The notes under the pieces are model-generated. The model was not told where the DNA came from. It searched no databases and saw nothing but the letters and a program-made list of their open reading frames with translations. A stretch of DNA of 64,000 nucleotides from the NCBI GenBank assembly GCA_017654735.1, contig JADPYG010000003.1, positions 186,001-250,000 on the forward strand, in the 5' to 3' direction. The DNA is from Vishniacozyma victoriae (taxonomy: Eukaryota > Basidiomycota > Tremellomycetes > Tremellales > Bulleribasidiaceae). A program made the position numbers and the translations under genes. The stretch's first letter is position 1. Each line of letters starts with the position of its first letter. Shown here piece after piece: positions 15,636 to 52,977 of the stretch.

Positions 15636-16161
15636 ATGTTATGGTCCGCCTTTTTACCGATATTAGCTATACCCATCGCCCTCGGCAGCTTGGTCGAAAG
15701 GGACGACATTTGCGGACCAATCCATGCCACTCCACTCCGCTACTGGTTTTCTTATACCCGTGAGCTCAACTCTCTTTTCGAAAACACCTCTGACAACCAG
15801 AGGACAAGTGCAAAGGAGACGCGATCGATGTTCAAGGCGAGATCATGGCCGATAACAAATGCAATCCCATCGGACTCGCCAAATCTTTTGCACCAGGATC
15901 TAAGGACGATGCAGATGGCGGGTACTGTCTCCTGAAATTTCGAGATAAGGGACGCGATGCCTGCAAATGCATCGCACAAGTCGAAGACTATACATTTGAG
16001 TCAGGCAAGAAGCCGCCATGTATCACCATTGATGATGGTGAATGGACTTCCTACCAGTGGGTCAGGAAATGTGATGCCTCCGTAAGTGGTTCTCTTTGAC
16101 GTTATGATGCCGAGGCTCATGACGTCAGCCCGACTGTCCAGAGGCCACAAGCTGCCCTTAG
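15636..16161 (+). CDS. Small secreted cysteine-rich protein A
   Basis: 145 residues, three exons: 15636-15759, 15801-16081, 16129-16161. Residues 1-18 (MLWSAFLPILAIPIALGS) are a signal peptide, followed by LVER. The mature part has ten cysteines. Landmarks: YTQDKCKGDAI at the exon 1-2 join, DGGYCLLKF, ACKCIAQVED, PPCITI, SYQWVRKC, and exon 3 encoding PDCPEATSC. Intron phases are 1 and 0. Gene B shares the same landmarks and the same ten cysteines. No enzyme motif is visible. It is probably extracellular and disulfide-stabilised; effector, lectin or cell-surface roles are all possible and none is shown by the sequence. Confidence 0.8.
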
Positions 16162-16840
16162 GCTGAGCGAAGCGTCATGCGCGGTTTGTAGTGTGATGTA
16201 AAGAGATACAATGACCGTCTTTGCGTAGGATAAAGCCCACATTGGAATTCTGGGTCTTGGATGATCTCATGTCTTGAGAATTCCACGTTAGCGTGGCGGT
16301 GAGGCGGATGCAGAAGGGTGCAGAAGTGCTCGTTTAGCCATCTCAGGCAGACTTGAAGGGTGCTACGATAGATGACTCGCCATGGTACGTTTCTCCCCCG
16401 ATCACCACTCTCGAATTCAATGGAGCCTGATCTCGGAAGTCCCCGTCCGACACCTTCCACGAAATCGATCGTCACCGGGGATCAGCATCTATTCTCGACG
16501 CCTGACGTACTCGTTGGGAAGAGTGTGTCGATCAAACGCAAGATGACACGAGCAAACCTTTCATCCTCCCACAATCAACCCTTGTGATTTTATATTTGGT
16601 CGATCAATCAGGTAATGCTGTGTGCGACCTTTGTCTTCCATCCCTCGAGGATCGGCATATGCGTGCTATACTTGGACGTGAGATAAAGATATGAAGCTCG
16701 CAATCCTCTTTCTTTCTCCACATATATCACTCTGCGTTGAAACTTTGCATCCAACGGCAATTCGAAACATTACGTTTCAATCGTTCTGGTCACATTTCTC
16801 TAGCTCGGTCTGACGCTTGGAGTCCCAAACAACTCAAACA
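16162..16840. other. Intergenic region and promoter of secreted protein B
   Basis: No gene seen. CCTTTGT at 16628-16634, 207 bases before the ATG of gene B, almost the same distance as in front of gene A. The rest of the two promoters is not clearly similar. Confidence 0.45.
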
Positions 16841-17353
16841 ATGTTCTGGCACGCTGTCTTACCTTTACTCACTCTACCAGCCGTTCTTGGCGAGCTAGTA
16901 GCAAGAGAGACTTGTCCTACATTGGCGAGTGGCAAAGACCGACGCTCTTACTCTTTCGCCAGTAAGTTTCCGTACTTGAGACACCACTGATCTTTAGACG
17001 GTGTCTGCGATAGAGCCACAATCACTCTCGAGGGCAATCTCGTAGACGATCCCGTTTGTGTCAAAGAACCTAATGCCAAATCGATCATCCCCGGATTCCC
17101 AGGCGAGAGGTCCGGGTCTTACTGTCTCTTGAAACACGATGATTTCAACTGTAAATGTGTCAGTGATGTGGTTGAACTAGAATTCAAAGAAGACGAGCAG
17201 CCGGATTGTATCCCCTTGACGGACAGTACCTATTTTTCCTATAGCTGGGTGAGGAAATGTGGAGTAAGTCCTCAGCTCCCAATCAGTACTGTGTTGACAA
17301 ATTAGCCCGACTGCCCTGCGATCTCTCCTCCTGACTGTTCTGGCGTCCAGTAG
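16841..17353 (+). CDS. Small secreted cysteine-rich protein B
   Basis: Three exons: 16841-16961, 16998-17263, 17306-17353; 144 residues, ten cysteines. Signal peptide MFWHAVLPLLTLPAVLGE, then LVAR. Exon 2 shows NGVCDRATITLEGN, GSYCLLKHDD, NCKCVSDV, PDCIPL and SYSWVRKC; exon 3 encodes PDCPAISPPDC. Intron phases 1 and 0 and the motif order equal those of gene A, so the two are tandem duplicates that have diverged strongly outside the cysteines. Function unknown. Confidence 0.8.
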
Positions 17354-18120
17354 TGTAGTCAACGGCTCCGTGCGTAGATTAATGCAGACCCTCATCTCCC
17401 CAAGTGACTAACATCTGTACGGCGAGAATATAAGACTGCGATCCATTGCTTACAGCCAATCTGACAGGGTGTACAGTAGTCACCCCGCCCAAAACCCGAC
17501 TTTCCTCTGATCGAGTTAGTCTATACAAAGGTTCATGTGCTGATCATAATGCTGATCAAGTTTCGAAAGACCTGATACACGTCTCATCACCCTGGTCAGG
17601 GGGTTAGTGGGCAGTACAAAGGTCCACTTGGCCAGAATGCAAATCAAGTTACACAGACCTGATGCATGTCGCATCGACCCACTCAGGATCCAACCCTTCA
17701 TTATGCACCTCCGTGAATTGGAGGACCCGTTGGCCCCGTCCGCCCATCATCGCCATGACCGAACCTCCCTTTGACCGGATCGGAGGGTGCTAAGGATATG
17801 ATGTACTACTAACCTACTGATTCCGTTTCAAATACTTGATCCACGTCTCATCACCTTCGGTCAAAGATGAACCATTCATCACGCCGCCCCATGCTAGGGG
17901 AACGCTGATCATTTCGGTGTTCCTTACATGCCCCTTGATCCCCTTCTTGAGCTTGTGCAGAGATTGATCCTATATAGGGATTGGAGCCTCGAGCTATTCT
18001 TGTTATTTCAATTGACCCAACAAACTTGTACAATCGACAAGTTTTACCTGTTTATAAAACAAGTACGTCCACATACAGCATAAATACAGTAGCCACCCTC
18101 TCCCAGACAGACAATATACG
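17354..18120. repeat. Intergenic region with diverged ~90-bp tandem repeats upstream of gene C
   Basis: Two diverged copies of a unit of about 90 bases begin near 17524 and 17615: each has TACAAAGGT, then AATGC..ATCAAGTT, then GACCTGAT.CA.GTC.CATC. A third partial copy is at 17836-17864 (TTGATCCACGTCTCATCACC). ACAAAGG falls at 17525-17531 and 17616-17622, once per unit. The third copy resembles 48993-49020, upstream of the second cluster. No gene seen. Confidence 0.5.
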
Positions 18121-18793
18121 ATGCGATATCTTTCTCTACTCCCATTGATCGCTGTACCTGGTGTACTAGCTCGCTTGGTCCCACGAGAGAGAATATACAA
18201 AGGCAATGATGGTCATCAATACTTTTTAGACCCTCTGACTGGTGAAAAAACAGCAGAGAACCAACGTTACGCCAAATGTTTTACCGGTATGTCCCCTCTT
18301 CAACTGTACAGCTGTCCTCGGCTTATGCGAAAGATGGCAACTGTAACGGCGACGCCATAAAGAACGGGACCTCGAACGATCCCGCCCAGTGGGACATGGA
18401 GTACAGAGAGTATATCACCGACACGTCGATAAAGTCCTTCCAACCAGGGGGTAAGGTTGAAGCCGGGTTTAGCATGCATTCCGCGCAAGCGGGAATGCTG
18501 GCCGGAACATTCTGCCTGATGAAATACACGTTGGAGAATGGACAATACTGCATTGACGACGAGAACACATCTCTCTTCTATATGAAATACGAGGATCCAG
18601 CTTATTGCATCAATGTCGAAGCGAAAGACGGCAAGGAGTACGTGGCGTTCAACTTCGAAAGAACTTACGACCATTGGGTGAGACTCTTCTCACTCTGCTC
18701 TGAGGCCAAAGAGCTGATGCCGTATAGCCAAAATGTCCTGCTGGATGCTACGATCTCGAATGGGCGCCACAATTGGTCGACCCTAATAAGTAG
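18121..18793 (+). CDS. Small secreted cysteine-rich protein C
   Basis: Exons 18121-18286, 18334-18677 and 18728-18793. Signal peptide MRYLSLLPLIAVPGVLA, then LVPR. Exon 2 reads TDGNCNGDAIKNG at the join (gene A: TQDKCKGDAI), GTFCLMKYT, AYCINV and ends HW. Exon 3 encodes PKCPAGCYDLEW, close to ECPVRGCYGLD of gene D. Phases 1 and 0 as in the family. If the second intron were retained the frame stays open to 18872, but the CP-type end would be lost, so I take the spliced form. Longer (about 191 residues) and with fewer cysteines (seven) than A and B. It links the two clusters: head like A, tail like D. Confidence 0.75.
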
Positions 18794-18945
18794 CCAGTAT
18801 AAGTGTTCTGGCTTGAAGAAGACGATAAGCGGAAGCAGTAAGAGTAAGTTAGAGTACAATAGAGTACAATAGCGTGAATGTAACGGAGTGGATACTGCTC
18901 GAATACCGTGACCGGTTGATGATACTATACATTCCAACCAGGCAT

Positions 18946-20593
18946 CTATACCAACTTCCAAGCCCCACCCTCCTCCTTGATCTCCACACTCCTCTTCTCA
19001 TCCAAACTGATCCTACCAGCATGGATAATAGCAGTAGTCAATACCGTAGCCTGAGCGGTAGGTAGTCCCTTGCCCTCGTAATCTGCTGCTGTCCTCTTTC
19101 CAGCAGTAACCTGTCGTGCGGCATCGACAAACTTCTCGAGGGAGATGTATCCGTAACCTTTTGATCCGTCAAAGAAGCCGTCCTCATCTGTTTATTAGCA
19201 GATGCCTCATAAAAAAGTTGAGGGGGTACGTACCTGGAGAGTACTTGACGTAGAAGGGGTTGTACTACTGATCAGTATTGCTAGTGAGAGATGAGAGAAA
19301 CTTACATCCAACTTTCCAACATCATCCTCAACGACACTGTATCCTCGATGAGCCTGGTCGACCCTGACCTCTCCCTTGGCAGCCATGTAATGGAACCTCT
19401 GTTCCGAGTGCACACCAGCTTTCAATGGGGCAGCCCAGGAAGCGGTGTAGACAGCTGTACCCCTCTGATTTGGGTCGGACAAATTCTGCCAGTCGACAAG
19501 AAGAGTGATAGTGTCTTCTGTCTTGGAGTCACAGCCCATGGAGGTAGCGATACCGGTAGTTGCTGATGCGGTGACCTTTGTCGGCTTGTATCGGCCTTCG
19601 ACCATCCAGCAGTGGATCTATAGGTCAGCTTGGGGCTCCAGGCAGGACGGACGAGCTTACATCAATGTGGTGCGAGTTTAGGTAGTACGAGATATCAGAA
19701 TCGATACCGGCCCATGACTTGAATGTCTCGAGCTGGAATTTGGGTTGTGACATGTCTATTCATTAGTGATCGTTCTGCAAACGGAATATAGACGTACAAG
19801 AACAGTAGAAGTTGAAATCACCGAGCTTTTGAGCTCGGGCTCGAGCATCATTGTATGCGGGGCTATATATCAGCTCAAGTCTAAATGCTGGAAGAGAAAC
19901 GACTTACTCGAATCGCTTGTGGTGCTCGACGAAACAGATCAATCCCTTCTCCTTGGCAATATCGATCAATTTCTGGTGATCCTCGACTTTCTGAGTAGCA
20001 GGCTTGGTGACTAGGACGTGGTGACCGAGGTTCAAGGCCTCGGAAGCGATTGGGAAATGGGTAGAATCGGGAGTGAAGATGATGACTGCTGATCCCTTGG
20101 GAAGAGCTCGGAGAGCGGACTTGTCTGCTCGTCAGCCACGACCGTGGGGATGAGAGGATACGTACAAGCCTCGGCGTCTCGGACATTGCTTTCAGGGAAC
20201 CCCCTGAAGTCGAGGTCGAGACCCTTGTAAACGTCTCCAATGTTCTTCTGGAAGTGTTCTCGGATCTCTGGGAACTGGTCGTTAGCTCCAGCCTTGTGTG
20301 ACATACGGGAGAACATACCTTTCCACCGTTGGTACCAGCCATCAAGATCCTGCTGATTAGCTATACGTCCATCGAGAAGAGGTTGATAAGCTTACTCGCT
20401 GACCTTTCCTCGTCGTCTGAGGTCAAACATGGTGACTCCGACAACACCAATCTTCTTGTCCGACTTGGACTGACCGGAGGGGGTGATACCGGTGGTGTAT
20501 TCACCCTATCATCAGCCCTAGCACCTGTCTACAGCTAAGAAGACTTACGGTACCCATAAGGCCGACTGAGATAGGAGGGAGCTGGTCTGTCAT
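18946..20593 (-). CDS. Gfo/Idh/MocA-family oxidoreductase
   Basis: NAD(P)-dependent dehydrogenase acting on a sugar, sugar acid or cyclitol. The N-terminal Rossmann part starts SVGLMGTGEYTTG and [25 protein letters not shown] is the family's catalytic-lysine motif (usually EKP), EHHKRFDPAY and HHIDIHCWM follow in the second domain. The gene has about nine exons with introns of 40-55 nt. The start ATG (20593-20591) gives MTDQLPPIS. The upstream region has CGG-N-CCG and a CCGGTC/GACCGG palindrome. The 3' end is convergent with gene C, 152 bases away. The exact substrate cannot be told; xylulokinase 6 kb away makes a pentose-related role possible. Confidence 0.82.
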
Positions 20594-20680
20594 TGTGTAT
20601 ATAATGTAGTATGTATCGCTGGAAGAGTATTGAGGATGAAAGTAATAGAACAACTTCTTTTATAAGGAGGAGGATATACT

Positions 20681-20708
20681 CCGGTCCCGACCGGGATCCT
20701 ACGGACCG
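20681..20708. promoter_or_regulatory. Palindromic CGG-type sites between the oxidoreductase and helicase genes
   Basis: CCGGTC-CC-GACCGG at 20681-20694 is a perfect inverted repeat with a two-base gap. CGGACCG at 20702-20708 is a CGG-N-CCG palindrome. Such sites are bound by Zn(II)2Cys6 regulators. They lie about 90-115 bases before the oxidoreductase start and 145-170 before the helicase start. Confidence 0.4.
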
Positions 20709-20852
20709 ACATACCGGTGCCTGCGAAGAATGATGCTAAATGAGGTGTATAAATAAATAGGAGGAGTATTCCGACGGGAGCATTATTTTGAAGATGATCG
20801 GGCATGTAATAGTAATGATGAGTAGAGTAAGGTTATCAACGCTCATATCACC

Positions 20853-23372
20853 ATGCTACCAAGATCAGCATTAGCAAAGACCCGTCTGGGTCTAGGGAGA
20901 ATACCTTTATCAAGGGCTGTTCTACCAAGGCAGATCGCTGCTTTATCGATCGCGTCTCGACCTGTCAAGACCGATATCCGTACGTTCATCTACTTGAATT
21001 CTATGCAACGCGAAGCTAAAGTACAGGTCTACGTCAATCACTACTAGCTGCCAGATGGTACGCTTCATCCGCTGCTGCCGAGAAGCAAGACGAGGATGAC
21101 TTCTTCTCTTCCGATGTTACCGCCTCCCCCCAAGCATCTACTTCATCGACCACCCTCTCCGAAAGCACCGACCCACTATCCGTATCATCACCGCCACAAG
21201 ACTCTGAATCAGACCTGCCTTCCGAGCCATCAACACCCGCTATCCAGATCACACCATTCACTAGCTTAAAAGGCAAAGTCGACCACGACATCCTCAAAGC
21301 GCTTACGGTTCGACCATTCCAGCTGACCGCTATGAGTGAGGTTCAGAAGAGGGTCCTTGCCATGATGCCGGAGTTGGCTGGTGGAAAGCCCAAGCGATCT
21401 GTTGTGGAAGGAGAAGATGGAGCACAAGAGACAGAGGAGACTATTCAAGTCAATGCTGTTGGGCAAAAGGTTTCGACTGCGGCCCGTGGAAAGCATGATT
21501 TGTTGGTCAAGGCCAAGACCGGTACCGGAAAGACCATTGTACGTTCCATCCCTTTGGTATGAAGCGATGTACTGATCTCAGGCCTTCCTCGTACCCGCCA
21601 TCGAGTCCAGGCTGAATCAACTGGAAGAGATCATGAAGAACTCGGAAGATCGATCAGAAGGTGGTCAAAGGAGAAAGGCAACCGCCAAGAACTCTGTAGG
21701 AGCTGTCATCATTTCCCCCACCCGAGAACTCGCTACCCAAATCGCCAACGAAGCCATCAAAGTCTGTACATGGCGCAAAGAACTCAATGTCCGATTATTC
21801 GTCGGTGGAATGTCTCGATCAGCTCAACTGCGCGATTTCAAGCGAAACCGAAAAGATATCATTGTCGCTACTCCTGGTCGAATGAAGGATATGCTCACCG
21901 AGCCGGATGTCATGGAGGCTGTTGGAGATGCTCAGACTCTAATCTTGGATGAGGCCGACACGTTACTGGATATGGGATTCTCGAAGGATCTGAACGACAT
22001 TATCTCGGCTTTACCGAAACAGAGACAGACTTTCCTGTTCTCCGCCACCGTTTCGCCTCAGATTAGGGATGTCGCTCGAAAATCGTTGAAACCAGATCAT
22101 CAATTCATCGATTGTGTACCGAAGAACGAAACCAACACCCATACCCATATTCCCCAGTACTACACTGTTCTACCTTCCGCCGCCGAACAGATCCCACATA
22201 CACTCAAGTTGATCGCCCATGATCAGATGGAGAACCCTGATTCGAAGGTCATTCTATTCTTGCCAACCACGAAAATGACGATGCTCTGGGCGACAATGCT
22301 CCGAGAACTCAACAGCGTTCTTCCAGGCCGAACATCAGTCCATGAAATCCACTCTGGTCTCGATCAGCGACGTCGATCTCGAGCTTCCGATGATTTCAGG
22401 AAGGACCAACGACCTTCTATCCTCGTCACTTCGGATGTATCAGCCCGAGGAGTCGATTACCCCGGTGTCACCCGAGTCATTCAAGTTGGTGTTCCATCAT
22501 CAGGTGAACAATACATTCATCGAGTCGGCCGAACCGGTCGAGGAGGCAAGGAAGGTGGACGAGGAGATCTGGTTCTACTACCTATCGAAGCTGGATTCGT
22601 TCAGGAACTCAACAAGGTCCCCATCAAGTCGGTCTCAGTCGATGAAATCACTGAACAACTCGCACCTGTCTTTTCCCCTGAACAACTCGCAAATATCGAT
22701 ACCAAAGTCAACGGTCTATTACCTTCTCTCGACCCCGAGGCTATTCGGGAAGTCTACACTAGTTTAATAGGTTATTACCTAGGTCGATCCGATACGATGC
22801 GAGTAGGCACCATGAAGATCTACGAAGCTCTTCAGAAATGGTCGACGGAAGCTGCTGGTCTATCCGAGGTACCTCACCTAAGTCCTGCTTTCTTGTCAAA
22901 ACTAGGTTTGAACAAGAAATCAAGTTTCGGTAGTAAATCCGGCGGCGGTGGACGAGGTGGATTCGGAGGTGGAGGACGAGGTGGTGGACGGGGTGGATTT
23001 GGAGGTGGTGACCGTGGAGGAGGAGGAGGGTTTGGATCTAGGAAACCCGCTTTCGGAACTCGAGAACGTTCATTCGGAGAGAGCGGCGGACGTGATAGGG
23101 AAGGAGGTGGAGGAGGGTATGAAAGGAAAGAGCGGGGTGGATTCTCGGGCGGAGGCGACCGGGAAGGTGGAGGTGGTGGATATGAAAGGAAGGAGAGGGG
23201 TGGATTCTCAGGTGGTGGTGGACGAGGTGGAGGTGGAGGAAGGGGTGGGTTCGGTGGTGGAGGTGGGAGGGGTGGATTCGGTGGAGGAGGACGTGGAGGT
23301 GGGGGTGGAGGAGGATTCGGTGGACGTGGTGGTGATCGTGGAGACCGGGGAGGTGGTGGAGACCGATATTAA
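20853..23372 (+). CDS. Mitochondrial DEAD-box RNA helicase (MSS116-like) with RGG tail
   Basis: ATP-dependent RNA helicase, probably for mitochondrial intron splicing or translation. Exon 1 encodes a basic presequence (MLPRSALAKTRLGLGRIPLSRAV) and joins exon 2 through a phase-1 intron with acceptor CACTACTAG; a second intron follows AKTGTGKTI (acceptor at about 21582). Motifs in order: AKTGTGKT (I), PTRELA (Ia), TPGR (Ib), DEAD (II), SAT (III), SARGVDYPG (V), HRVGRTGR (VI). The last 150 residues or so are Gly/Arg-rich (RGGFGGGGRGG repeats and two copies of a GGYERKERGGF unit), an RNA-binding RGG tail encoded by 22940-23370. Yeast MSS116 has a shorter basic tail. Confidence 0.9.
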
Positions 23373-23867
23373 GTCTTCCTACTCCACTTTTCACGTTCCC
23401 ATTCCCATTGTGAAAATACGAAGATATCAATAACTTTCGCATCATACCCAACCTTTGTTGTACCCGGAGATCAATACTCCACCTTCCAAAACTAAAGCTG
23501 TTTACATACAATCGTACTACGTACATTAGAAGATATTCACATCATTACGACACCCCTCCATTCATGCATACTTTCCTTGCAGCTATTATATACACATTCC
23601 CTGCGAGTATGAGATGAGTCATTGGAGTGGAGAAGGGCCGACCCGACCGGCGCGCTGGCGCCAAGTCGAAAAGATCGGATTGACTTCGGCGAATACCCCG
23701 GCTTGTCCGGCGAGTAATTTCTCTACTCTTGGTATGTACATCGGGGCAACCTCGTATGAACCACTCTTCCCAGCGTGCTCCATTCTCCCTAGTCCATGTA
23801 TATATATATATCCCCCCACTATCTCTTCATCCTCTACTATATCTGCTTTGTATAACGAAAATTTAAA
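23373..23867. other. Intergenic region and alpha-glucosidase promoter
   Basis: No gene seen. GGCGC-GCTG-GCGCC at 23649-23662 is a perfect 5-bp inverted repeat; CCGACCCGACCGG lies next to it. A TATATATATAT tract at 23800-23811 is a likely TATA element 57 bases before the start. Confidence 0.45.
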
Positions 23868-25846
<1,979 letters not shown>

Positions 25847-26607
25847 TGTAGTACAGAATGTGAATAGGACAGTGTATATAGAAGAGTAGTATTGTCTTGC
25901 GTATATGCAAACTTGCTTGCTCCACTCCTAGTACAAGCATCATAAGTCATGTCAACAACTGCCACTTCTGAACGATCATGATGAATGCCACAAACCAACT
26001 TTACTCCGCCTCTTACCGACCACTCACACCTCATCAATATGTCATCCGCACCCCGGCACAAAACTCCCGGGAAGCAACCTACGATGCATCAGCGCTTTCG
26101 CCATATGGCGTCCAAAGGCCTCTTTTCAAGTTTTGTATCGATAGTTCCTGAAAATGACATCTGCCAAGGTTGCCAAGCGAAACAGCTCCTCGCTGCTTTT
26201 ACCTTTGTCATCAGAGTTGACATCGTCTCGCTCGGGTTTTATGCTCGTCAAGCACAGCGAGATGATTGACGATGCCAAGGAAGCGAGGAACAATCACCGA
26301 GGCTTGGTAGGAACAATCACATCAGTAACTCCCATATCCAGGAAGGGGATGGAGGGGGCGGATGTGGGAATTTAGGATCGTCCTTCTCGTCTTACCCCTT
26401 ACCTCGCCCCATACGTGTCCTACTGGAATATGGTATATGTCGCTCAATCCGCTGATGTGCTTTACCGTCTTCTTGGGTTTTGGTATTTGTATTCATCAAG
26501 TCACTTTTGACGTGAACCTATTAACTTCTTTGGACCTTGGACAGCTTTCAAAGCGGTCTCATTCGACGGTAATCGACTACGGCCTCAGATATACGGAAAA
26601 CGGCACG
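25847..26607. other. Intergenic region upstream of the SLC6-type transporter
   Basis: No supported gene. An open frame at 26154-26375 (73 residues, Ser-rich, no motif) could be an upstream ORF or a leftover exon. The transporter frame is open back to 26362, but that part shows no conservation-like signal. ACCTTTGTC occurs at 26200-26208. Confidence 0.4.
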
Positions 26608-28933: not shown

Positions 28934-29468
28934 AGGAGACGGTTGTTTGAGATATAGCCATCTGGCCCCGATGGAATATGCTTTTTTGTTAGGATATACT
29001 ATGCATGTAGACTCTCGGCCCCTCTATACTTGTCCGGCCATAGCTTGCCTACCTCCCAGATTCGCAGACTCGTGTCGACCTGCACCGGGTACAGTATCAC
29101 AAGTGCGCCACTCCGCCACGCCGGATCCCGGTTACGCAAATTCTGCTAGCTCCTCCTCTTACTATTTTTACCTCGTCTCTTCGGTCTTCTACAGATCATT
29201 TAATCGGCATCTCGGTCATACCACGGATGTGTGACTCAGGCTGCACGGATGTCGGAAACAATCTGCATACAGTCTATTTGACGTCATACAACCCACCTAG
29301 ATCCGTCGGGAGCTCGGTGGGGTACCCGAATGGTTTAGTGGAGTACCGGCGGCTTCGGAGACCTGATACTAGGTGATGAGGAGATCTCGGTCATACTCAC
29401 TCAGACTCAACCTATAAAGATGACCTTGAGTTGAATGCACAACTCCATCCGCCATCCATCGATCCAAC
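28934..29468. other. Intergenic region and GH39-like gene promoter
   Basis: No gene seen. GC-rich stretch 29305-29370 with GGGTACCC (29319-29326) and several CCGG/CGG words; TATAAA at 29412-29417, 52 bases before the ATG, is a good TATA box. Confidence 0.45.
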
Positions 29469-30909: not shown

Positions 30910-31170
30910 ATTTAAGGAGATGTGATGGGAAGGAGGAAGAGAAGGTCGAATGGAAGAAAGAGTGATAGTATCAGGAGAAAAAGATTGGACGGGAGAAATC
31001 TGAACCACGAAGAACAATCGTAATAGGCCTATGCATGACGTACCATTGCACTACCTTTTGTTCTACCTAATTTGTGCTTAACCTTCCTTGCCCACTTTGT
31101 TCTACCACGAGTGTGCGCTCGATCAGCGCCCATGCCTGCTCTCGGCCTCATCATACGCTGTACGTCGAAT

Positions 31171-38353: not shown

Positions 38354-38908
38354 ATACGAGGTCAAGGTAAGTCTGCGCTCCCCATCACTGGCTCTGACTG
38401 ATGGATAGTCAAGGAAGTTTAAGAACCGTCAAATTAAAGGACAATCATCAATGCTCCTACGCCCCTACATTCTTCACGACATTATCATTCGATTTTCTCC
38501 ATATATTTCGAATTCTTTGCATACAATACATCATTTTCTGTAAATTACTACCTTCTTTCACATTCCTCCTCTTTATTTTCGATTCGACTTGAGCCTTCTG
38601 AAGGCATGGTACTAAGATATGCTTTATGATATATATGGTGAATGGGATTGAGGCATTATCGTACATTGGATCGCATATTATACTCTCTTCTTTTCACGTT
38701 CTATGTTATTACGTTGCTCTTTCATGCAGATTTGTGTACATGTACACTTACGTTGCTCTGCAGCTTCGAGCGATGCAATGTGCGTGACTATTGAGCTATT
38801 GAGTGCTCATCTCGCTGGGTGAGGTAGAGTAAACAGGTTGTAAGCATATATACATGACAGGTCGTACAACATTCCAAAAGCAAAATTGATAGCGAAGAGA
38901 GCAGAAAT
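38354..38908. other. Convergent 3' region
   Basis: AT-rich 3' untranslated sequence of the La-motif gene (+) and DIM1 (-). No gene seen. Confidence 0.45.
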
Positions 38909-41536
<2,628 letters not shown>

Positions 41537-41957
41537 TGTATGTAAAGTATAGTAATCTCAAAGAATGTTAACTTGACTTGAAATGCAACTTTTAAAGATC
41601 CGTGCCTGGCAATCCCACACCGACACAGTCAACATTTGATGGGTATAAGATACAGTAGCTTCGGACAATACTCAGTATATGTACGAGTACTATCACAACT
41701 CCTACTCAAGAGTCAAGCAAGCAGCTACCGCCGCATGATGGTGGCCATACTATCATTATTCATACTAATTACAATGTCCACGACATGTTGCTTTCTCGGG
41801 TTCTTTGCCCTTGTTGCCACTCAATCTTCTGATACCAACATCACAGCGCTGCCGCCGTCCCTCCGCTCATCCGCTACTTCACATCTCACCCTTGATGACT
41901 CCCTCCACCTCGTCAGCTCGCACCTCACACCTCGCTTCGCTCGGCGCTCGGTACTCG
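41537..41957. other. DIM1 promoter and 3' flank of the KH gene
   Basis: Holds the DIM1 promoter. CTCGCTTCGCTCGG at 41931-41944, next to the KH gene stop, is another copy of the short GC-rich repeat. A 110-codon plus-strand frame here is judged spurious. Confidence 0.45.
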
Positions 41958-43496
41958 CTATGCCATAGACTTCTGCTTCTCCTGCTCCAACCTCGCATAC
42001 AACATCTGAACAGCGGTATTAATATTATGTGGTAATCCAGTAATCGTAACCAATCTCTCTTCGGGATTTGGTTCAGATCCAGCAATAGCGGGTGTTCCAG
42101 GATCGGTGACTCGGACTTGACATTGTGAAGCTTGTCGGATCTCATTAATCTTGGCTCCGGCTTTACCGATTACTGTTATTAGCTCTGTCCTTCTATATAT
42201 ATTTATATATAAGGGGGAGACTCACTGGCACCGACGAGAGCATTTGGGATGAAGATCTGTTGAGTCTGAGCACCGGGCATGGATGCTGTATCCCTCCCAC
42301 CACCTCCTGCTACTGGTGGACCATTACCCATTTGAGGAGGTGGTCCACCTCGAGCACCTTGTTGGCGGTATAATCCAGTAGCGGCACCGGGGTTACGTTC
42401 ATTGAATTCAAGTAGAATGTTTCCGATATAGTAGACTGCAATGTGGACTGCGTCTGCTACTCCGGACACTGAGAGGACTCGCTACACGTCAGCTCAATAC
42501 CGTGACCTGGAAACGGGAGCTCACCTCGGTGGAACCTGGGAGCATGGATTCGGAAGCATTCAAACGAGCTCCGGAAGCTTCTTGGATTTCCTTGATCTTG
42601 GCTCCTCCTTTACCGATCCTGGTTATCAGCTTGACGTCTCGGGAGACTGATAGGAAAGCTTACACACTACCCATGCGTGAGTTTGGAATGATAAATTTGA
42701 TAGTGACCGCTCGGGATCCAGGTACAGAAGCGATATCATATGGCTCGTCATTGATTCGTCGGACAATCAGACCGAATGCCTGTCATTAGCTATGCTCATA
42801 GGAACAGGACCATTCAGCTGACCTTTGCAACCGCGTCCAAAGGCCCAGAGACGTTGAGGATACGTTCCGGGTTCCCAGGGATTGACTCAGATACAGTCAC
42901 TCTCGCATTTGACCTTTCCTACTCATCAGCTATATCCAAACAAATGGAAGCTATGAGCTGACCCTGATCTCATTAACGTGAGCACCGGCTCGACCGATAA
43001 TCACACTAGCATCCCCGGTAACGATCAAACTCCTCATTTGGATATTCTGGACTGGAGGTTCACCGGCAGTAGCGGGTGTAGCCGGGATAGAAGATGGAGG
43101 AGGTGCTAGCGAAGATGCAGAGGTGGGCATCGATGGATCGCCCTCGCTACTGGTCAGCTCGAGTCCTGATCAAAAAGACGCGTCGGCGAGATAGAAGACT
43201 CACCCCTCCATTTTGTCACCATTCATCTTTTGGGCCGAATGGCCGTTCCCGTTCTCGGACGATGCAACAGTTGTAGATGCAGTATCTGATCCTGGTTCCT
43301 CTTTTCCTTGTCCTTGTCCTTGTCCTTGTTCCTGTTCCTCCTTGACTTCAGCTACAGGTACAGCGTCTCCGTTCTCTGCCTTTGCGCGTTTTGTCGAACT
43401 TGAATCAGAGGATCGTTCGGGGGAAGAACCTCTTTCTCGTTTAATTGAAGTCGCGCTAGTAGCAGTGACGGGTGGTGAAGAGTCTGTTTCGGCCAT
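41958..43496 (-). CDS. Three-KH-domain RNA-binding protein (PCBP/hnRNP K-like)
   Basis: Binds C-rich or poly(A)-associated RNA; nuclear or cytoplasmic mRNP protein. The N-terminal 95 residues are disordered and Glu/Gln-rich (EQEQGQGQGQGKEE, from a repeated TCCTTG unit at about 43300-43330). KH1: SLIVTGDASVIIGRAGAHVNEIR; KH2: IKFIIPNSRMG ... IGKGGAKIKEIQEASGA; KH3: QQIFIPNALVGA ... VIGKAGAKINEIRQASQCQVRV. Each GxxG loop is intact (GRAG, GKGG, GKAG). Introns cut each KH domain just before or after the GxxG. Start ATG 43496 (MAETDSS). Divergent from ITC1. Relatives include yeast Pbp2 and human PCBPs. Confidence 0.88.
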
Positions 43497-44535
43497 TATT
43501 GTATTGTGTATAATAGAGTAGTAATAAGAAGGATTCAATCAGTTCCTTGTACTTGGACTAATGTTTGCGAGTAGGTTTAGATTCGGGCCAGGGGAGTGTA
43601 GATAGTAGTAGTAGTAGTGAAAGAAGGAAGTCGCCAGTCGGGAGTGTAATATGATGTCGTGTCAAGATATAAGGTGGAGGATATGTGGTCAGGTGGGGGA
43701 AAGGGTGAATGGGGTATATATGAATATTACTCACCTAGTCTAATGTGTTCTATCTCCTTGGTACTGTACTGTACTGTGGTGTAGTGTACTTTGTTGGTGT
43801 ATTATAGTAGGAAGACTAGACAACAACGGAGAGTATACACCTTCCCTTCCTTTGTGTCTACTGTAACGCACAGACACTGAGACCGGAACTACACGGAGTT
43901 AATTACACGTGGTAGACCCTGTACTGAGTGTGGCACTCATGTTGACGCGTCGAGATATCAGTCATAACTTTTACAGTCAGATCCAAGATATAAATTTAGT
44001 ATAGGCAAGAGGAAGGGGGTATGCATAGTAGTAGGGGAAATAGTACCAACAACCAGTCAGGTCTCACCCAAGAGATTCACTATGCATTTCTATACTAACA
44101 AGAAGAAGTTGTGAGAGAGCAATCAACAAACCACACCCCTCTCTATACCCCGCCAGATCTGCCACTCCAGGGCAGACTTGAAAAGACCTACCCGACCTCT
44201 ACCTCGGTAGTCTGAACCGTTGCTCTCTATACTACACTCTCTCATTATCCAACGTCTGACAACTAGTCAAGGTATCCCGACGAGCTACTCCCACACATAG
44301 CTATCGACTACCCTTACTGCCTGTAAAGTTGAAAGTGGAGGTTGTCCAGATTATCGGTACATACTAGATTGTTGATCGCCAACTCGAACAAGGGATACGA
44401 CAACTTATCATATACGATTCCAACCGCTTCAGAACATAACGACCAAGCCCCTATCAGCATCTTGTGAATAGTGACCCCCGACACCTACCTCAACTCAATC
44501 ATTACTACACCCACCTCCCTATCAAAAGAACCAGA
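43497..44535. other. Divergent promoter region of the KH and ITC1 genes
   Basis: About 1 kb without a gene. A TACTGTACTGTACTGT-type short tandem repeat lies at about 43761-43780. Pyrimidine-rich leader sequence precedes each start. An in-frame ATG at 44464 would add 24 residues to ITC1. Confidence 0.45.
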
Positions 44536-47500
44536 ATGCCCCTCTTAAAACGTAAACCAGTAATCTATCAACCCCTCCCATCCCTCTCTACGATCCTACA
44601 ACCAATAGCCTCATCTTCAAAAGATATCAACGAAAATACCCCACCTCCCCCACTCGGTCCCAATTCTAGTAAATCCAAAAAGAAAAAGCCAGACCAAGAA
44701 TCAGAATTAGGAGATGATGACACCAAATCCCAGTGGGTACCACCAGATTGTGAGGATGATAAAGATCAATTAAGGTTATTGAGTAGGGTTTTCGAGGAAG
44801 GGTTTACCAGGGGAGCTGTTACTAAAGGAAAGAAGGCTGGGACTTGGATCGTTAATGGTGGAGTTAATATCCATCCACCTCCGAATAGCGAGAATGGTGA
44901 TGTGAAGGAGGAGGATGTAAAGATGGAAGAATCTATTGGAAATGGTACAGGGGGGATGTTACCTCCTCCACCACCAGTAGCTTCAGAGAGCTGGAAGATT
45001 ACGGATAGGGAAGTCTTTTATATCCCAGAGACGGGAGAGATCTTTACGGAATACGAGTGAGTCCCTCTCCACTCTTCTAATTCATTATCGGAATTCGGCC
45101 CCACTAGAAGATCAGAACTGATAATAGACCGTACTTGAACAGAATGAACTTCTACCAACAACCACTCTATCAATGTGAAGGTATGTCCCCCCCCTCCTGT
45201 TCGACTCATTCCTCTTCGACTCATCCCTCTTTCACTCGGATCAGGGATAAAGGAGGATCCCTCATCTGAGACTATATCTCTCACCTGAGTGAGAGTGGAG
45301 AGGAGAACACCGCCAGGGGCTAATAGGCAGTAAGCGGAAAATCAGCAATGTCATATTTCGCAGCCCACGCAAATGAACGTAAAGAAACGAGGCAACTTCA
45401 TACGAGGTTCCCTAAACAGTTGAAGAAGGCTGTATTGAGTGCTGTTCAATTCCGTTAGTACCTCCCCTATTCACCCTTCTCTTTTCCCTCTCGAGCTCCA
45501 GTACGACGATTGTCTCCCTCTCCATCTCTAGTGAGACGATGTGGAAATGTAAATGCGAGAAGGATCGATGGGAAACGAGGAAATTGAACTAACAAACAGA
45601 GGTCGAAGGTAAACTTGAAACACTCGCTGATAAGATCTACGAGAGGTTCGTAAACAGGTTCTTCAATGACGAAAGTAAGTCCCCCCCTCTCATCCTCATT
45701 ATAGTATTGAAAAGCTAACAGGAATAGAAGTATTCGTAGATGTACAAGGAGACAAATACCTAGCTCGCATCATTAAAACTTTCCCCCCTAAAACCTTACC
45801 TCAATCAACATCAATATTGGAATATCACCCCCTAGCTGCCAACTTGAACCTTGAACCAGAAGAAGTATTGGAAAGTGATGATCCGATGAAATATTTTTAT
45901 TCGGCTAGATTGATTGTTGAGGGATCGGAATGGAGTGGGACGGGAGAGGAATTTGAGGGTAGTTTGATGGAGGTTCAAGCTGATAAGATCTCGTACGTTC
46001 CCTCTCCTTTCTCTCAATTCGGGGTCCACGGACCATTGGATTTACCCTCGTTGCCCTACTTCATCCGCGATTGACTGTCCTCTCCCAAACGCCCACCTGC
46101 TTTCCAGTTGATCATTCCCCGCTCGCTCATCTGCTTCGCAGATGACCTCGCTGACAAGCAGCCGAGACCGTATAAACTTCTCTCGAGCAATGTTGAAACG
46201 TTTCATCCGCGACTGCGTAGATCGTGACCCAGCAGTCTACTCCCCCTGGATCGTAAAACCCCAACTAGCAGCTCGATACGGTATCCCTACCGAAATGTCC
46301 GACGAGGTCCGGGAAGAAATTGAAAACTTTAGAGAAAGACAGATGGATAGGCGGAAGAGGGAACGGGATGAGCGGTTGGGGTTGGTTGAAGAGGAGGAAG
46401 CACCTGCTGGGAGAAAGAAGGTTAAGAAGGAAGTTGAGGTCAAGGAGGAAGATAAGAAGAAACCAATGAAGTTTCCTGCTGAAGGTATGTCCTTTCTCTC
46501 TTCCCGTCCCCCGTCTCACTGCTTCTCCTCTTCATCCTCCAACCCTCGAGTTTTGTCTTTGAGGCCAAAATTCGACTAGGCTGGTAGAATTACGCTGATA
46601 TCAGACCTTTTGGTGGAATATGTCGAGAGGGACGAGAAAGAAGGTCGGATCCTTGTTCGTCCGGCTGTTGGTCGGAATTTACCATTTGGAGATGGATTTG
46701 AGAAATTGTTATTGGCTTGGAGTTTCTTGAATGTCATGGGGTATGTTCTCTCTTTTCCATTCTACTTTCAATTTCCATCTCGAATCTCATCTCGAACACA
46801 ATTGCGTCAGGTGATACAAAGACTCGGAGAAAACCAGAAGATGAGATGACACGGAGAAAAAGGACGACAGCCGGGGAGATGACAAGAGAGGGAAACTGTG
46901 GAAGAGGAACTAGGGCTGACCTATAGCAAACCTCTCAACCTATCCCCCTTTACGATAGACGAATTCGAGCAGTCCCTCTACCACAAAGAACCAAACCCCC
47001 TCATGACCGAGATCCACACGTCCCTCCTCAACACCCTTATCACCGACCTATCATCCGGTACAGGCGAAGCAATAAAACCAATTGGTACACCAGTCAATCA
47101 GGCCGGAGAAGAAAACGACACAGATTACTGGGAAGGTCTCAAGGGAGCCACCACCGAGACCCTCCGACCTGTCGCCGACGAACTAGCTTCCAACTGGACG
47201 AACCAAATTGGTAAAGATCGAAAAGGATGGGAATCATCCCTAGTAGGTCTCCTCTGGGATAGGGGTACCCTAGCATCTCTCCCGACATACCTCGACAATA
47301 TCCTACATTTAACTTTCGAAGATAAACCAGCCCCCACACGACCTACATGGGCTACTGGCCCCACTTCAACTTCCGCGCATGGATTGATTCCTTCGAAACC
47401 TGAGAAAAGATATGGGACGTTACATCATTCTCATAAATTGGGGATTATTGGGTGGATCATTGATTTATGTTGTCAGACTGGGGCTGTTAGGGATTTTATG

Positions 47501-48794
47501 GAGGAGAGTATGAGTGCTTTGACAGAGGTTAGGAAGGAGCAAGTGGATGTTAAGAGGGAGTGGAAGAGATTGTAAGTGGTCGAGCCTTGCGATGAAGGAG
47601 CAGGCGAGCGACCTGTATCTCTCAATCGTCAAGGTCGAGAGCAGGCTTCTTGCTTGCCGATTGCAATGTCTGGAATTGGATTGCGCTGACAAACAGACAA
47701 GCGGAATTAGCTGCTATGGAACCTAAAAAGGAAACCAACGGGAATGGTGATGCCGAGGAAGACATCCCTGCCGGCTCGGTCTCGGCCGCAGTAAGCGAAC
47801 ACGATGAATTGGAAGAAACCCCAGCACCCTCCGAGGCAGATCACGAAGAACCGCCCACATCCCCATTATCCGAACCAGCGGTCAAATCTCGTCGTCAAGC
47901 CAACGCCCAACAGGCAGCTGCTAGAGCCGAAGAAGAGGCTCGTATAAAGCAAGAGCGAGAAATCGTGAAAGCTAAAAAGAGCGAATCGAAAGCAATCATC
48001 AACGAAAAGAAACGATTAATCGATGAAGAAGAGAAATTGACTATACGCCTACGGGAATTGGATTTGGAATTCAGAACTCATATTTATACTTTACGATCAC
48101 GACCACTTGGGTACGATAGATTTGGGAATAAAATATGGTGGTTTGATGGGATTGGATCTGGGACTCCTTTATCCACTTCTCCCTCCGCCGACGGAGGAGG
48201 CGCAGGAGGAGGAGCGGGGTATGGGACTGGAAGACTATATATCCAAGGAGTTGATGATGAGGAGATTGATTGGTTGGTCATTTCTGGAGAGGTTGAGAAG
48301 AGTTATATAGAGGGACGGAGGGCGAAGGAGGAGGGGGAGAGGTTGGGTGCGGGAGAATGGGGTGTTTATGATACTCCAGAACAGGTTCGTTTGTTTCTTT
48401 CACAACTCCTTTTCCCGTCCCAAGCGATTCCAAGGTCTCTAATCCCGGTGTTTCGCCTACTCGACGTAATCATCCATCGGATCCTCCGACGTCATGAAAG
48501 TTGAAAGAGTAACTAATAGCAGTTACAAGAATTCAAAACATGGTTAAACCCCCGAGGAAATAGGGAAGGAGCACTCCTGAAATCCATCCGTACTTGGCAA
48601 GTAGAGATCGAAGCAGGTATGAAACGAAGGAGAGTAATCATGGGGTTAGATAAGAATGTAGATGAGGAAGAAGGGTTAAAGAGGCGAGTCACAAGGAGAG
48701 GTGGGGAGGAAGAAGGGTTTTTGGGGTGGAAGGTAAGGTTTTCCTTTTGCTTTATGAGGAGGGGGCTGATGGATAGAATAAACGTGCTGTTTAG
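44536..48794 (+). CDS. ITC1: ISWI chromatin-remodelling complex subunit (ITC1/ACF1-like)
   Basis: Accessory subunit of the ISW2-type remodeller in the nucleus. Domains in order: WAC domain (EVFYIPETGEIFTEYEPYLNRM... QPLYQCEVSGKSAMSYF ... RFPKQLKKAVLSAVQF), a basic KKEVEVKEEDKKK stretch, DDT domain (LVEYVERDEKEGR ... FEKLLLAWSFLNVMG, SPFTIDEFEQSLYH), a long helical region (LGIIGWIIDLCCQTGAVRDFMEE), a coiled coil rich in Glu and Lys (RAEEEARIKQEREIVKAKKSESK), and the WHIM3 motif RPLGYDRFGNKIWWFDG. About a dozen exons. Intron 46002-46190 or so contains the hairpin CATCTGC-TTC-GCAGATG (46128-46144). The last exon encodes NKRAV and stops at 48794. Confidence 0.92.
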
Positions 48795-49685
48795 ATGATA
48801 TGAATCCTACCCGGATTTCCTCATCAACTAGGGAGCAGGTATGTAGAGTAGGGTGTAGAGTGTCTAGATTTGGTATAGGTATACATACAGACAGACATAG
48901 ATAGTCAGTAGGTTCCTGCATGGATAATCATTGTCCCTCCTACGATTCCGACAGCCCGGCCGAGGGGATGGACTACTGAATCGACTAAAGCTGTTGATCC
49001 GGGTACCTCACCTTCGGTCAACAACGCTCCGGGTACTCATTGATCAGGACCGAGGCGGAGGATGAGGAGCGAATTCAATGTCGATCGAATAATCAAAGGA
49101 TATGATCAGCGACGATACCGGGACACAACGAAGGATATTAAATCTCCCCGTAATGTCCTACCGTCTCGCGATTCCACCACCTCGTCAAGAAAGGGAATGC
49201 CAGATTTAGGAGATAGAAGGCACGCATATATCTCACTAGCCATCACTGATGGAACCCTGATAGCTCTTGTTGACTGATGACCGAGCTCCTTGAACCCCTG
49301 CAGATCTTGGACCGAGCATCTTACCAATCAGCCTCATTCTTTTCACTCGATTCATATCTACCTTTGTCCTGTTCAAACACGCCAAGCTGTCTCTGTTATT
49401 TTTCAACCTACATGTTAGTCCCATGCTGATCAGGGCGAAGATCATCTTCACCCTTTGAGCCCCTTGAACATAGCTGTTTCACTGGGTATCCGTCCCTTGG
49501 AACCTGTCGATCATGCAGATCCCTCCTTGGTAACTTGTTTCCCGGGTCCCAAAGTCCAATATACATCTCCTCAAATCGCGAGTGGTGAAACCCCATTTAT
49601 CCTTACATCGTCTAGATAATCTATAAAGCGTATCTTGAAGCTTGACGCTACAATTGACGATCAACCTATACCATCTTTATTTTAA
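48795..49685. other. Intergenic region upstream of the second secreted-protein cluster
   Basis: No gene seen. CCTTTGT at 49361-49367 is 319 bases before the ATG of gene D. 48993-49020 (TTGATCC...TCACCTTCGGTCAA) resembles 17836-17864 before gene C. CCCCTTGA occurs at 49461-49468 and a related form at 49290. Confidence 0.45.
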
Positions 49686-50237
49686 ATGCTCCCCAATAGT
49701 CTTTTAGTTTTCTTCTTGGCACCAGTCTGTCTGGGGATAGGATTTCGCGAGCGATACGCCACGTTTCACACTAGTATGTCCCGTCATTGGGTATGCAGGA
49801 TACCACTGACAATAGGCGACGATTGTAGTGATCCGGTCGATCCCAACTACGAGAATTCCAACATGGATTCGAACGCCTGCATTAATCAGCAAGGCCGACA
49901 CTCATTCATGCCGGGCAAAAAGGCAACCACTGCCGCCGTATATTGTTTTGTATATTACGAGGAAGACAATTGCAATTGCATCAAGGGTGCTCGAAAGATC
50001 CATCCCACTTGGAAGGAAGAGCCAAAATGCGAAACCAAAGAGGTGGCGGGATACAAGTCGTATCATTTCGAGCCAGCACAAGATGTGAGTCGTCCTTGAC
50101 ACGAGCCGGTAGACGGAACGCTGATACCGCAGGGTGAGTGTCCCGTCAGGGGATGTTATGGTCTGGATCCCGATGGCGGAAAGTACCCGGTGGAATGGCA
50201 GTATGTAGAGGAGGATTCCCAAGGATTTGAGGAGTGA
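49686..50237 (+). CDS. Small secreted cysteine-rich protein D
   Basis: Exons 49686-49773, 49816-50084 and 50133-50237; 153 residues. Signal peptide MLPNSLLVFFLAPVCLG, then RERYATFH. Exon 2: DDCSDPVDPNYE, GRHSFMPGKK, AVYCFVYYEEDNCNC, PKCETKEVAGYKSYHFE. Exon 3: GECPVRGCYGLDPDGGKYPVEW. Eight cysteines after the signal peptide. Phases 1 and 0. The CF-x(8)-NCNC pattern corresponds to YCLL...CKC of A and B. Closest relative in the window is gene F. Confidence 0.8.
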
Positions 50238-50812
50238 TTTGGCGGGATAGAAGCAAATGAAGTAGTTGTCCTGCATGTGTTCCTGTCTCGGTATTCGTAT
50301 TTGTAACCAGATCGGTGCTCTCTATGCAGCCAGTATTGAGGTGGCAGACGCCATGCGCAGATGCTCTACAGGCAGTGTAGATATCACGTCAACATCTCAA
50401 CGAGAGCTCCACCGCTGGCTTAAGCGGCGAGAAGAGCGGGAGCGAAAGACAAGAGCTCTGATAAAAGATCGCCGACTGAGTCTGACCCTGTAAGAGAAGA
50501 AGAAAGCCAAGGTCTTCGATCGCCGTTTAGCCCCTTGACGCTGATCCGAAATCCGTAGCTATGCCGATCATCGATCACTCTTGGCGGAAACAGCGGTACT
50601 TTGGGAGACAGACAAAGCAAGGGAGGTACCAAAGGCAAGGCTTTGTCAGGGGAGATTAGCATATTTTGCGTTTCCGAAGTCGTTTCGGATATTTATTTCT
50701 AATCCTAGATTCCTAGACAGAGGACAAAGACTTTGCCGAAAGGCTATAAGATCCGGGTGATCTCTGTGTCTCAGTCTGCATGCGTACCATCTTATCACCT
50801 CAGATCACCGAG
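50238..50812. other. Intergenic region between secreted proteins D and E
   Basis: No gene seen. ACAAAGA (one mismatch to ACAAAGG) at 50724-50730, 83 bases before gene E. CCCCTTGA at 50533-50540. Confidence 0.4.
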
Positions 50813-51336
50813 ATGAAGCTGTCCCTCCCTTTCCTTTTTGCCTTTGTCGGAGCCGTACTAGCGGTGAACAAGCAAAAAATGAGGCTCAACGAACAAGCCA
50901 TGTTTTTCGATGGTGAGTCATGGCACCCAGAGTTCGGAACTATGACTAAAATATACAGAGATCGATGAAACCAGTGAGCTGCAGAAGTTCGGCACAGTAC
51001 TAATGAATGCAGTGCAGTGTACAGGAAATCACGGCGGAGCAGTCAGCATGAACAACAATGGCTGTCTCCGCTCCGAGGCAGCCAGGAGCTGTCTATTCAT
51101 CGGTCCGGACACTTATCCGAGAGACTGGTGTTTCCAGAGGTTCGACGACGATAATTGCGAATGTCAATCCATGGGCGAACCGCTGAGCATGGGACCCGGC
51201 CAAAACTTCTTTTTAAGGGATGGACCCAAATCCTATAGTTTTAGAGTGGTATGTTAGTCATCAACCGTGATGTCTATTGCTGATCCAATCTCAGGGAGGC
51301 TGTACCGATAGAAAGGAATGGAAATGTCACAAGTAG
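50813..51336 (+). CDS. Small secreted cysteine-rich protein E
   Basis: Exons 50813-50912, 50959-51248 and 51295-51336; 143 residues. Signal peptide MKLSLPFLFAFVGAVLA. Exon 2: VQCTGNHGGAVSMNNNGCL, RDWCFQRFDDDNCEC, GPKSYSFRV. Exon 3: GGCTDRKEWKCHK. Eight cysteines. Phases 1 and 0. The WCF-x(7)-NCEC pattern and the SYxF end of exon 2 match gene D, but overall identity is low, so it is an older branch of the family. Function unknown. Confidence 0.78.
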
Positions 51337-51913
51337 GTAATGATCACGAGCCTGAACATGGTGGCACTAGGCCGTTGAAAACCCTCGATATGGTGCGTAT
51401 GCAAACTCTAGTAGACGATGTGTTTGGGTGGTGTTGTCCGATGTGAGGCTTATTTACTTGTTCTCGGGTGGCGAAATATGAAACATGACGATCCGGCCGC
51501 TTGGCAAGGTTAGATCGCGGATAACGCGACCTGATGATCAGTCCTCTGCTAGAATTCAGGATCTCAGCTTGGGCTTTGATTCACTCATACTCATGACGAT
51601 TCCCTACCTACCGCATTTCACAAACGAATCTCTACCCAATCACAGCAAGTGCCCCTCAAATCGGAACAAAGGAGCTGATTCCATCTCCCCATGCAAATCC
51701 TGATTTCAACGGACACTCCTGCCGATCAAGATGGATCACTCCTGTGACTTCGACAACATCAACGTTTGAGCGACAAGGGGACAAAGGATTTGTCCCGGAC
51801 CATTCCCTGGCAGGACGATCATCAACTTTATACTGTACAAAGCTTCGGCTCGGCACTCGCTGTGTCCATTACATTTGGATCAATAGAGAGCAACCCACGC
51901 AAGACGCATCAAT
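51337..51913. other. Intergenic region between secreted proteins E and F
   Basis: No gene seen. ACAAAGG at 51781-51787, 127 bases before the ATG of gene F, inside GGGGACAAAGGATTTGTCCC, a 20-base near-perfect inverted repeat. Confidence 0.45.
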
Positions 51914-52546
51914 ATGCTTTGCCAATACCTCGTTCTCCTGTGTCTAGGGGTCGCAGCACACGCAAAAATTGTTTACGATCGATACGCCACTTTCTACAAT
52001 AGTGAGTTTATCTTTCTGTCCCCTCATTTTCAGCTGACCGGATGATAGCCCGCAACTGCGATGCAGATCTCAAGTCCGAAGACTACGACCACACCGTTGG
52101 AATGAGCATGACAAAAGGAGAATGCATACGTGAAACTGGCCGCCGGTAATTCATGCCGGGCAAGAAAGATACAAAGACTGGCAACATTTGCTTTGTCTGG
52201 TATCAAGAAGGAGACGGAAATTGCGAACGTATACAAGGAGCAAGAATGATGCATTTCATCAAGGATCCTGCATTGGTATACTGCGAAGCCGACAATGTAA
52301 CTGGTCACACCTCTTATCATTTCGAATGGGCAAGGCCTAACGATAAGAACGGTGAAAAGGTTAGCCTAAAACATTTATCTTGTGTCTTGCTTACCTTAGA
52401 ACCTGTGCCCGTCTAGCGGATCATATGTCAAGAATGAGGAGGGCGAAGACACGGTAGTATGGACCGAGATGGCATTAGATGGTCGGGTGGGGACTGACCC
52501 AGAATCATTTGACGAGAATGGCTGCCCGGCCTGGCCAGTCGCATAG
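51914..52546 (+). pseudogene. Secreted cysteine-rich protein F with one in-frame stop
   Basis: Exon 1 encodes MLCQYLVLLCLGVAAHAK (signal peptide) and YDRYATFY; phase-1 intron (donor GTGAGT at about 52001, acceptor GATGATAG). Exon 2: NCDADLKSEDYDHTV, ECIRETGRR, then TAA at 52147-52149, then FMPGKKDTKTGNICFVWYQEGDGNCE and TSYHFEW. Gene D has GRHSFMPGKK at the same place, so the TAA replaces a Ser codon (TCA to TAA is one change). The rest is intact: second intron phase 0 (donor GTTAGC), exon 3 NLCPSSGSY to the stop at 52546. A very recent nonsense mutation, a sequencing error, or read-through. Confidence 0.75.
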
Positions 52547-52883
52547 GTGGAACCCAGCTGTGAATTGGCATTTGGTACCTTTATCGATCGGAGATCAAGC
52601 AAGGAAAGTAGTCTCGATGTTGTACCATGTGTAATAGTAGGTGTTGATACTTTGTATACTATTGATCCAAGACCTTGACCTCATCAACCCCTTGAACCCG
52701 ATGGCAAGTCCCTCCGCTTGACGATCAAACGTTGTCATTGACCGAGCCCCTGGGAAGGAGGTATCTACCTTTGTCCACCCCATATTTAACGTCCCTCCCT
52801 GGTGAGATGATGTTATTTTTGTTCTCTTCGATCTCACCATAGCGAGACCAGATTTGTCTCCACACAATACTCAAATCAATTCC

Positions 52884-52977
52884 ATGTTGAAGGCAAAACC
52901 GTCCCTGTGGCTCCTAGCCTCCCTCCTACCGATCGTAGTAGCCATCGAACTATGGAGATATGCCACGTTCTACGATT
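52884..52977 (+). pseudogene. Exon-1 remnant of the secreted family (G)
   Basis: ATG 52884 starts MLKAKPSLWLLASLLPIVVA (signal peptide) and ELWRYATFYD, followed by a GTAAGC donor in phase 1, exactly as exon 1 of D and F. The next 370 bases have no cysteine-rich exon in any frame. CCTTTGT lies at 52768-52774, 110 bases upstream. The copy seems cut off at the intron, beside the gene on the other strand. Confidence 0.65.

Follow-up and report, generated by a model that had tools for sequence, protein, structure and literature searches.

What are the seven small cysteine-rich genes that lie in two clusters on a 64,000-nucleotide stretch of the Vishniacozyma victoriae genome, do they form one family, and what might their products do? 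The stretch (hereafter the window) covers positions 186001-250000 of contig JADPYG010000003.1, within an 11.58 Mb genome assembled as 17 contigs (GCA_017654735.1). Sequence comparison leads us to regard the genes, labeled A to G, as one orphan gene family, with a relation that is secure for A, B, D, and F, likely for E, and weak for C, and their products as small, cysteine-rich, presumably secreted proteins of a kind common in fungi. Such orphan families make up much of the unexplained part of fungal secretomes. What we add to the preliminary description of this locus is a common upstream element and a possible killer-toxin-like fold. The genes are as follows (cysteines are counted past the presumed signal peptide):

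Gene A: plus strand; exons 15636-15759, 15801-16081, and 16129-16161; 145 amino acids, 10 cysteines
Gene B: plus strand; exons 16841-16961, 16998-17263, and 17306-17353; 144 amino acids, 10 cysteines
Gene C: plus strand; exons 18121-18286, 18334-18677, and 18728-18793; 191 amino acids, 7 cysteines (an odd number)
Gene D: plus strand; exons 49686-49773, 49816-50084, and 50133-50237; 153 amino acids, 8 cysteines
Gene E: plus strand; exons 50813-50912, 50959-51248, and 51295-51336; 143 amino acids, 8 cysteines
Gene F, a pseudogene: plus strand, 51914-52546; exon 1 at 51914-52001, exon 2 from 52049, exon 3 at 52400-52546
G, an exon-1 remnant: plus strand, 52884-52977; hydrophobic start and RYATFYD, with a phase-1 donor

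The matching three-exon layout claimed in the preliminary description is borne out. In A to E, the intron phases are 1 and then 0 without exception (5 of 5), and the introns are 36-50 nucleotides long with GT..AG ends. F keeps both intron positions, the first in phase 1 and the second, at 52360-52399, in phase 0, and G retains only exon 1 with its phase-1 donor, after which nothing recognizable as exon 2 is found. Seven of the ten introns of A-E have a branch-site-like pentamer ([CT]T[AG]A[CT]) 10-15 nucleotides from the 3' end; it is missing in intron 2 of A and in intron 1 of both C and E. A stop codon interrupts exon 2 of F at 52147-52149, and the region past this stop matches D. All seven starts have a hydrophobic N-terminus (best 12-residue mean hydropathy 2.26-2.82), and the presumed mature chains of A-E count 126-174 residues with 4.0-7.9% cysteine. 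In being short, cysteine-rich, and free of known domains, these presumably secreted chains are like the fungal orphan small secreted cysteine-rich proteins.

The motifs held up in most genes. In the exon-2 core, Y/W/F/I-C-L/F is present in A-F and CxC in A, B, D, and E (C-x-R in F); SY-x-W/F occurs in A, B, D, E, and F, and the claim that it is common to all breaks down at C, which has AFNF. The C-P-type motif of exon 3, C-P-x(2-6)-C, is found in A, B, C, and D, whereas E is without the P and F without the second C at that place. Near the end of exon 1, an RY stretch recurs in A (RYWFSYT), C (RYAKCFT), D (RYATFHTS), F (RYATFYN), and G (RYATFYD), so exon 1 may encode more than the signal peptide. 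Just past the presumed signal peptide, L-V-x-R/K is kept in A (LVER), B (LVAR), C (LVPR), and the relatives P0001 (LVAR) and P0005 (LVEK) discussed below, and is possibly a propeptide processing site.

Whether these genes are truly one family was judged mainly from leave-one-out profile hidden Markov models, searched against 8996 six-frame pieces from 282,879 bases (including the 19 kb flanks and a 200 kb genome sample). Each left-out gene was scored by the others: E-values were 1.2e-13 (A), 2e-16 (B), 3.8e-15 (D), 1.3e-9 (F), 0.0044 (E), and 1.5 (C), the last being beaten by two unrelated pieces (0.28 and 1.2). As leaving out a single gene retains its nearest paralog within the profile, pairs were also removed, giving 5.1e-6 and 5.1e-8 for A and B, 6.8e-13 and 0.0026 for D and F, and 0.0098 and 0.0012 for C and E, with 1.2 for the best unrelated piece in this last case. 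It is because of these leave-one-out results that we grade the members differently. C is the most divergent, and its membership rests on gene layout (intron phases) together with weak similarity.

Other comparisons draw a similar picture. Among 15 exon-2 pairs, each compared with 2000 shuffles in a full and a cysteine-keeping variant, seven had at most two shuffles reaching the real score under both types; the numbers were 0 and 5 for B-E, and 1697 and 1705 (chance level) for C-E. Profile-to-profile E-values were 2.9e-6 for A-D, 8.5e-7 for B-D, 5.7e-5 for D-E, and 3.6e-5 for A-C (hhalign, C against the A group), the weakest being 0.019 for A-E. In whole-genome searches with single proteins, B retrieved A and D, D retrieved F and B, and C and E matched only themselves. 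No further members emerged from the whole-genome searches with B, C, D, and E (A was not a query, and only three first-look candidates were scored in each), nor by profile in the 282,879 bases. That the genes are unrelated cysteine-rich look-alikes whose introns agree by chance would fit the failure of C in its own leave-one-out test, the chance-level C-E score, and the weak A-E similarity. We consider it extremely unlikely, as A, B, D, and F recover one another strongly and E weakly, relatives exist elsewhere, and the upstream regions have an element in common. The seven-member family originally described comes down to three secure intact genes (A, B, and D), a likely one (E), and one supported by its layout (C), F being a pseudogene and G a remnant.

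The family also remains, as first described, unrecognized. Pfam gave no family at E<=10 for A, B, and C and only sub-threshold matches for D (0.12) and E (0.24), with 0 families above the curated cut-off for A-E; at E<=1, one of 23 aligned members had one match (E 0.061). PDB sequences yielded no match beyond chance, also with the family profile at E<=10, and no sequence similarity to killer toxins was found by hmmscan of Pfam or by the family profile against PDB sequences (E<=10). The titles and opening lines of abstracts that the literature searches listed gave no account of the A-G family.

Relatives do exist in a set of 5.8 billion proteins, where 17 protein clusters were retrieved. By our reading of the alignment, five are A-type (P0005-P0009), one is B-type (P0001), three are D-type (P0002-P0004), and eight are E-type (P0010-P0017). 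None of the 17 is C-type, and no relative of C was found outside the window. Those with a name are all labeled "hypothetical protein", and several translate through introns, like the output of an intron-blind gene caller. D and P0002 are identical at 145 of 152 exon residues and 22 of 29 intron-read residues, D and P0003 at 101 of 118 and 13 of 17, and B and P0001 at 106 of 128 and 8 of 11; the contrast between exon and intron identity is clear for P0002 only. Both introns of D are multiples of three, with a stop only in intron 2, and the frame of P0002 is open across the two, so a protein would result there even with the introns retained. Identity to E ranges over 59-79% among the E-type relatives, and W-C-x-x-x-F-DDD-x-C-E-C-QSMG is kept in nine of nine E-type sequences. 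P0003 and P0004, both from metagenomes, differ in two ways: P0004 lacks 18 residues and with them one of the first two cysteines, and an Asn-to-Ser difference adjoins CxC (SCNC instead of NCNC). With the E-type profile, the sole profile tried, no relative was found on viral and prokaryote contigs; the viral search bears on a kinship with virus-encoded toxins of the KP4 and KP6 type. The stop in F, the stub G, and the shortened P0004 agree with the tandem growth and decay proposed earlier. The rapid divergence proposed alongside applies to the paralogs, which differ strongly, but not throughout: A, B, D, and E each have close relatives in other sequenced samples, and the E-type motif is invariant.

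Upstream of the genes lies a common element, with the following sites:

15421-15429, minus strand: GACAAAGGT element, some 210 bases ahead of the A start codon
16627-16635, minus strand: GACAAAGGT element, some 210 bases ahead of the B start codon, in the best-aligning A/B upstream block
17525-17532, plus strand: ACAAAGGT element, the first of a pair in front of C
17616-17623, plus strand: ACAAAGGT element, the second of the pair in front of C
49360-49368, minus strand: GACAAAGGT element upstream of D, with the 15-base block TATCTACCTTTGTCC common to D and G
50611, 50641, and 50723 (span 50611-50729): three GACAAAG sites upstream of E, none with G next
51666-51672, plus strand: ACAAAGG site upstream of F
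51778-51796: ACAAAGG site upstream of F within the perfect inverted repeat GGGACAAA-GGA-TTTGTCCC
52767-52775, minus strand: GACAAAGGT element upstream of G

The core ACAAAGG, which has one site each in front of A, B, D, and G, has two each in front of C and F, and is not contained in the GACAAAG sites of E, was first spotted by eye in the upstream regions and counted afterward. In the 4418 upstream bases of the seven genes it has eight sites, against 0.57 expected from 200 kb sampled from the same genome or 0.96 when the remainder of the window serves as background, and ACAAAGGT has six sites, against four in the whole 200 kb (0.09 expected). Among k-mers that recur in four or more of the seven regions, a ranking against the 200 kb puts ACAAAGGT first of the 8-mers by enrichment and ACAAAGG first of the 7-mers by score; with the remainder of the window as background, the leading 7-mers are, in this order, CTTTGTC, ACCTTTG, and ACAAAGG, all pieces of one element. 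For comparison, ACAAAGG is found in 3 of 49 upstream regions of open reading frames of at least 200 amino acids. Of 300 random sets of seven length-matched background stretches, none reached the 8-mer signal and three the 7-mer signal.

Part of this sharing reflects the relatedness of the promoters. Three of the 21 promoter pairs (A-B, D-G, and C-D) beat all but at most one of 200 shuffles; the aligned A-B block contains the element, the D-G block is 15 bases long and is the element itself, and the C-D block is without it. Descent accounts for part of the sharing, yet the element sits in the kept blocks of A-B and D-G. With one mismatch, the 15-base D/G form occurs at five other places (four for a reversed-pattern control). 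The 3-kb stretches around these five gave no significant family-profile match (best 0.44); at two of them an ATG with a hydrophobic start follows 450 and 595 bases downstream, one reading transporter-like. Same-strand ACAAAGGT pairs at most 30 bases apart are absent from the genome. On this evidence the family genes probably share regulation, and the element resembles sites of high-mobility-group (HMG) box factors.

As to the products, structure prediction suggests that the exon-2 core is a small beta-protein. The D-type model, of low confidence (predicted local distance difference test, pLDDT, 45.7), leans to the betagamma-crystallin/WmKT killer-toxin fold, a double Greek key. The better A model (pLDDT 73.6) gives no clear match and does not single out WmKT, and an internal Greek-key repeat was seen in none of four sequences tested. 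The top Foldseek row for the exon-2 model of A is the Fusarium Avr2 effector (PDB 5od4), with E 0.25, a template-modeling (TM) score of 0.33/0.28, and a root-mean-square deviation of 11.9; no significant viral fold match was obtained for this model. Disulfide pairing read from cysteine co-loss (the CxR of F along with the absence of the second exon-3 cysteine of D, and the gap in P0004, which takes one of the first two cysteines and one cysteine of CxC) was dropped as too thin.

Starting from the observed family relation, intron layout, relatives elsewhere, and element enrichment, we tentatively propose, as a possible if somewhat doubtful whole, an orphan secreted beta-core family with a common element and regulator whose products are antagonistic to other microbes. 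Exon 2 would encode a disulfide-stapled beta-sheet core and exon 3 a C-P-x(2-6)-C or related cysteine pair. Through the common upstream GACAAAGGT, a single regulator, plausibly an HMG-box factor, would switch the genes on together, and the secreted products would act extracellularly against other microbes, like small beta-fold yeast killer toxins, the paralogs diversifying through duplication and decay. We regard extracellular antagonism as the most likely role. The conserved gene layout, the relatives of four members in other samples, and the specific element leave regulation and fold open to direct testing.

The nearest rival, because of the upstream element, is a role in the sexual stage: a pheromone-response HMG-box factor of mating or filamentation would control extracellular proteins that coat or join the producer's own cells. 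Against it, the upstream regions of the family contain no exact copy of the smut pheromone response element ACAAAGGGA and six ACAAAGGT sites, and the Cryptococcus neoformans Mat2 element, quoted as AAAGAACAAAAAGACA in the available part of its source (PMC7349709), is not the family motif. Profiles of mating genes (STE3, the STE12 domain, and fungal pheromones) found no match here, a blank that is uninformative because 14 control genomes were blank too. We judge this account to be rather unlikely. An even bolder version would combine it with the proposed antagonism, making the family a chromosomal battery of killer-toxin-fold (betagamma-crystallin) proteins under an HMG-box mating-type switch, diversified antagonists or recognition proteins released on sexual entry; this is highly doubtful. 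Were the element an HMG-box site and the fold killer-toxin-like, a mating-type regulator would be tied to secreted antagonists.

Many tremellomycetes are mycoparasites, and the proteins could instead be effectors of a mycoparasitic or leaf-associated life style that act on a host. Tandem duplication, divergence, and decay speak for this, as does Avr2 as top match of the A model, but that match is not significant and the E-type relatives are well conserved. We consider host effectors quite improbable. A comparably low probability goes to structural or nutrient-related cell-wall proteins without any antagonistic or host role. Small secreted proteins of saprotrophic yeasts are often of that kind; nothing specific favors it here, whereas the five models A-E have no known domain, and reading the sequences reveals neither a repeat nor a hydrophobic anchor at the C-terminus. 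Antagonism toward other microbes stays our preferred, tentative reading.

The neighborhood also includes an F-box protein, a DEAD-box helicase, an alpha-amylase, sugar-transporter family protein, DDT/WSD domains, and a sodium:neurotransmitter symporter family protein (PF00209, 26329-28350, plus strand, E 1.1e-74). To our knowledge, such symporters are uncommon among fungi. ARAGORN reports a tRNA-like gene with undetermined anticodon at 9188-9278 (minus strand).

How does the family compare with known systems? Fusarium Avr2, which the available part of PMC10462633 groups with ToxA, resembles it as top Foldseek row for A and differs in that the match is not significant and the family profile has no PDB sequence match. 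For the element, the sources available in part offer several comparators. The Mat2 element differs. GACAAAG agrees with the opening portion of (A/G)ACAAAGAA, the Podospora HMG-factor site (PMC3730723). The smut pheromone response element (PMC3248468) has ACAAAGG in common with the family element, and in front of A, D, and G the form ACAAAGGTA is one mismatch off. For the fold, the known comparator is the WmKT/HM-1 killer toxin of Williopsis (Cyberlindnera) mrakii (PDB 1wkt). According to the available part of PMC10462633, toxin folds, including betagamma-crystallin/WmKT, are frequent among the orphan candidates of 20 Pezizomycotina species. That survey covers Pezizomycotina and no basidiomycetes, and the fold of A-G is a tentatively predicted one; like those orphan effectors, the A-G products would be secreted, sequence-divergent proteins with a mature chain below 300 amino acids, no Pfam domain, and a beta fold.

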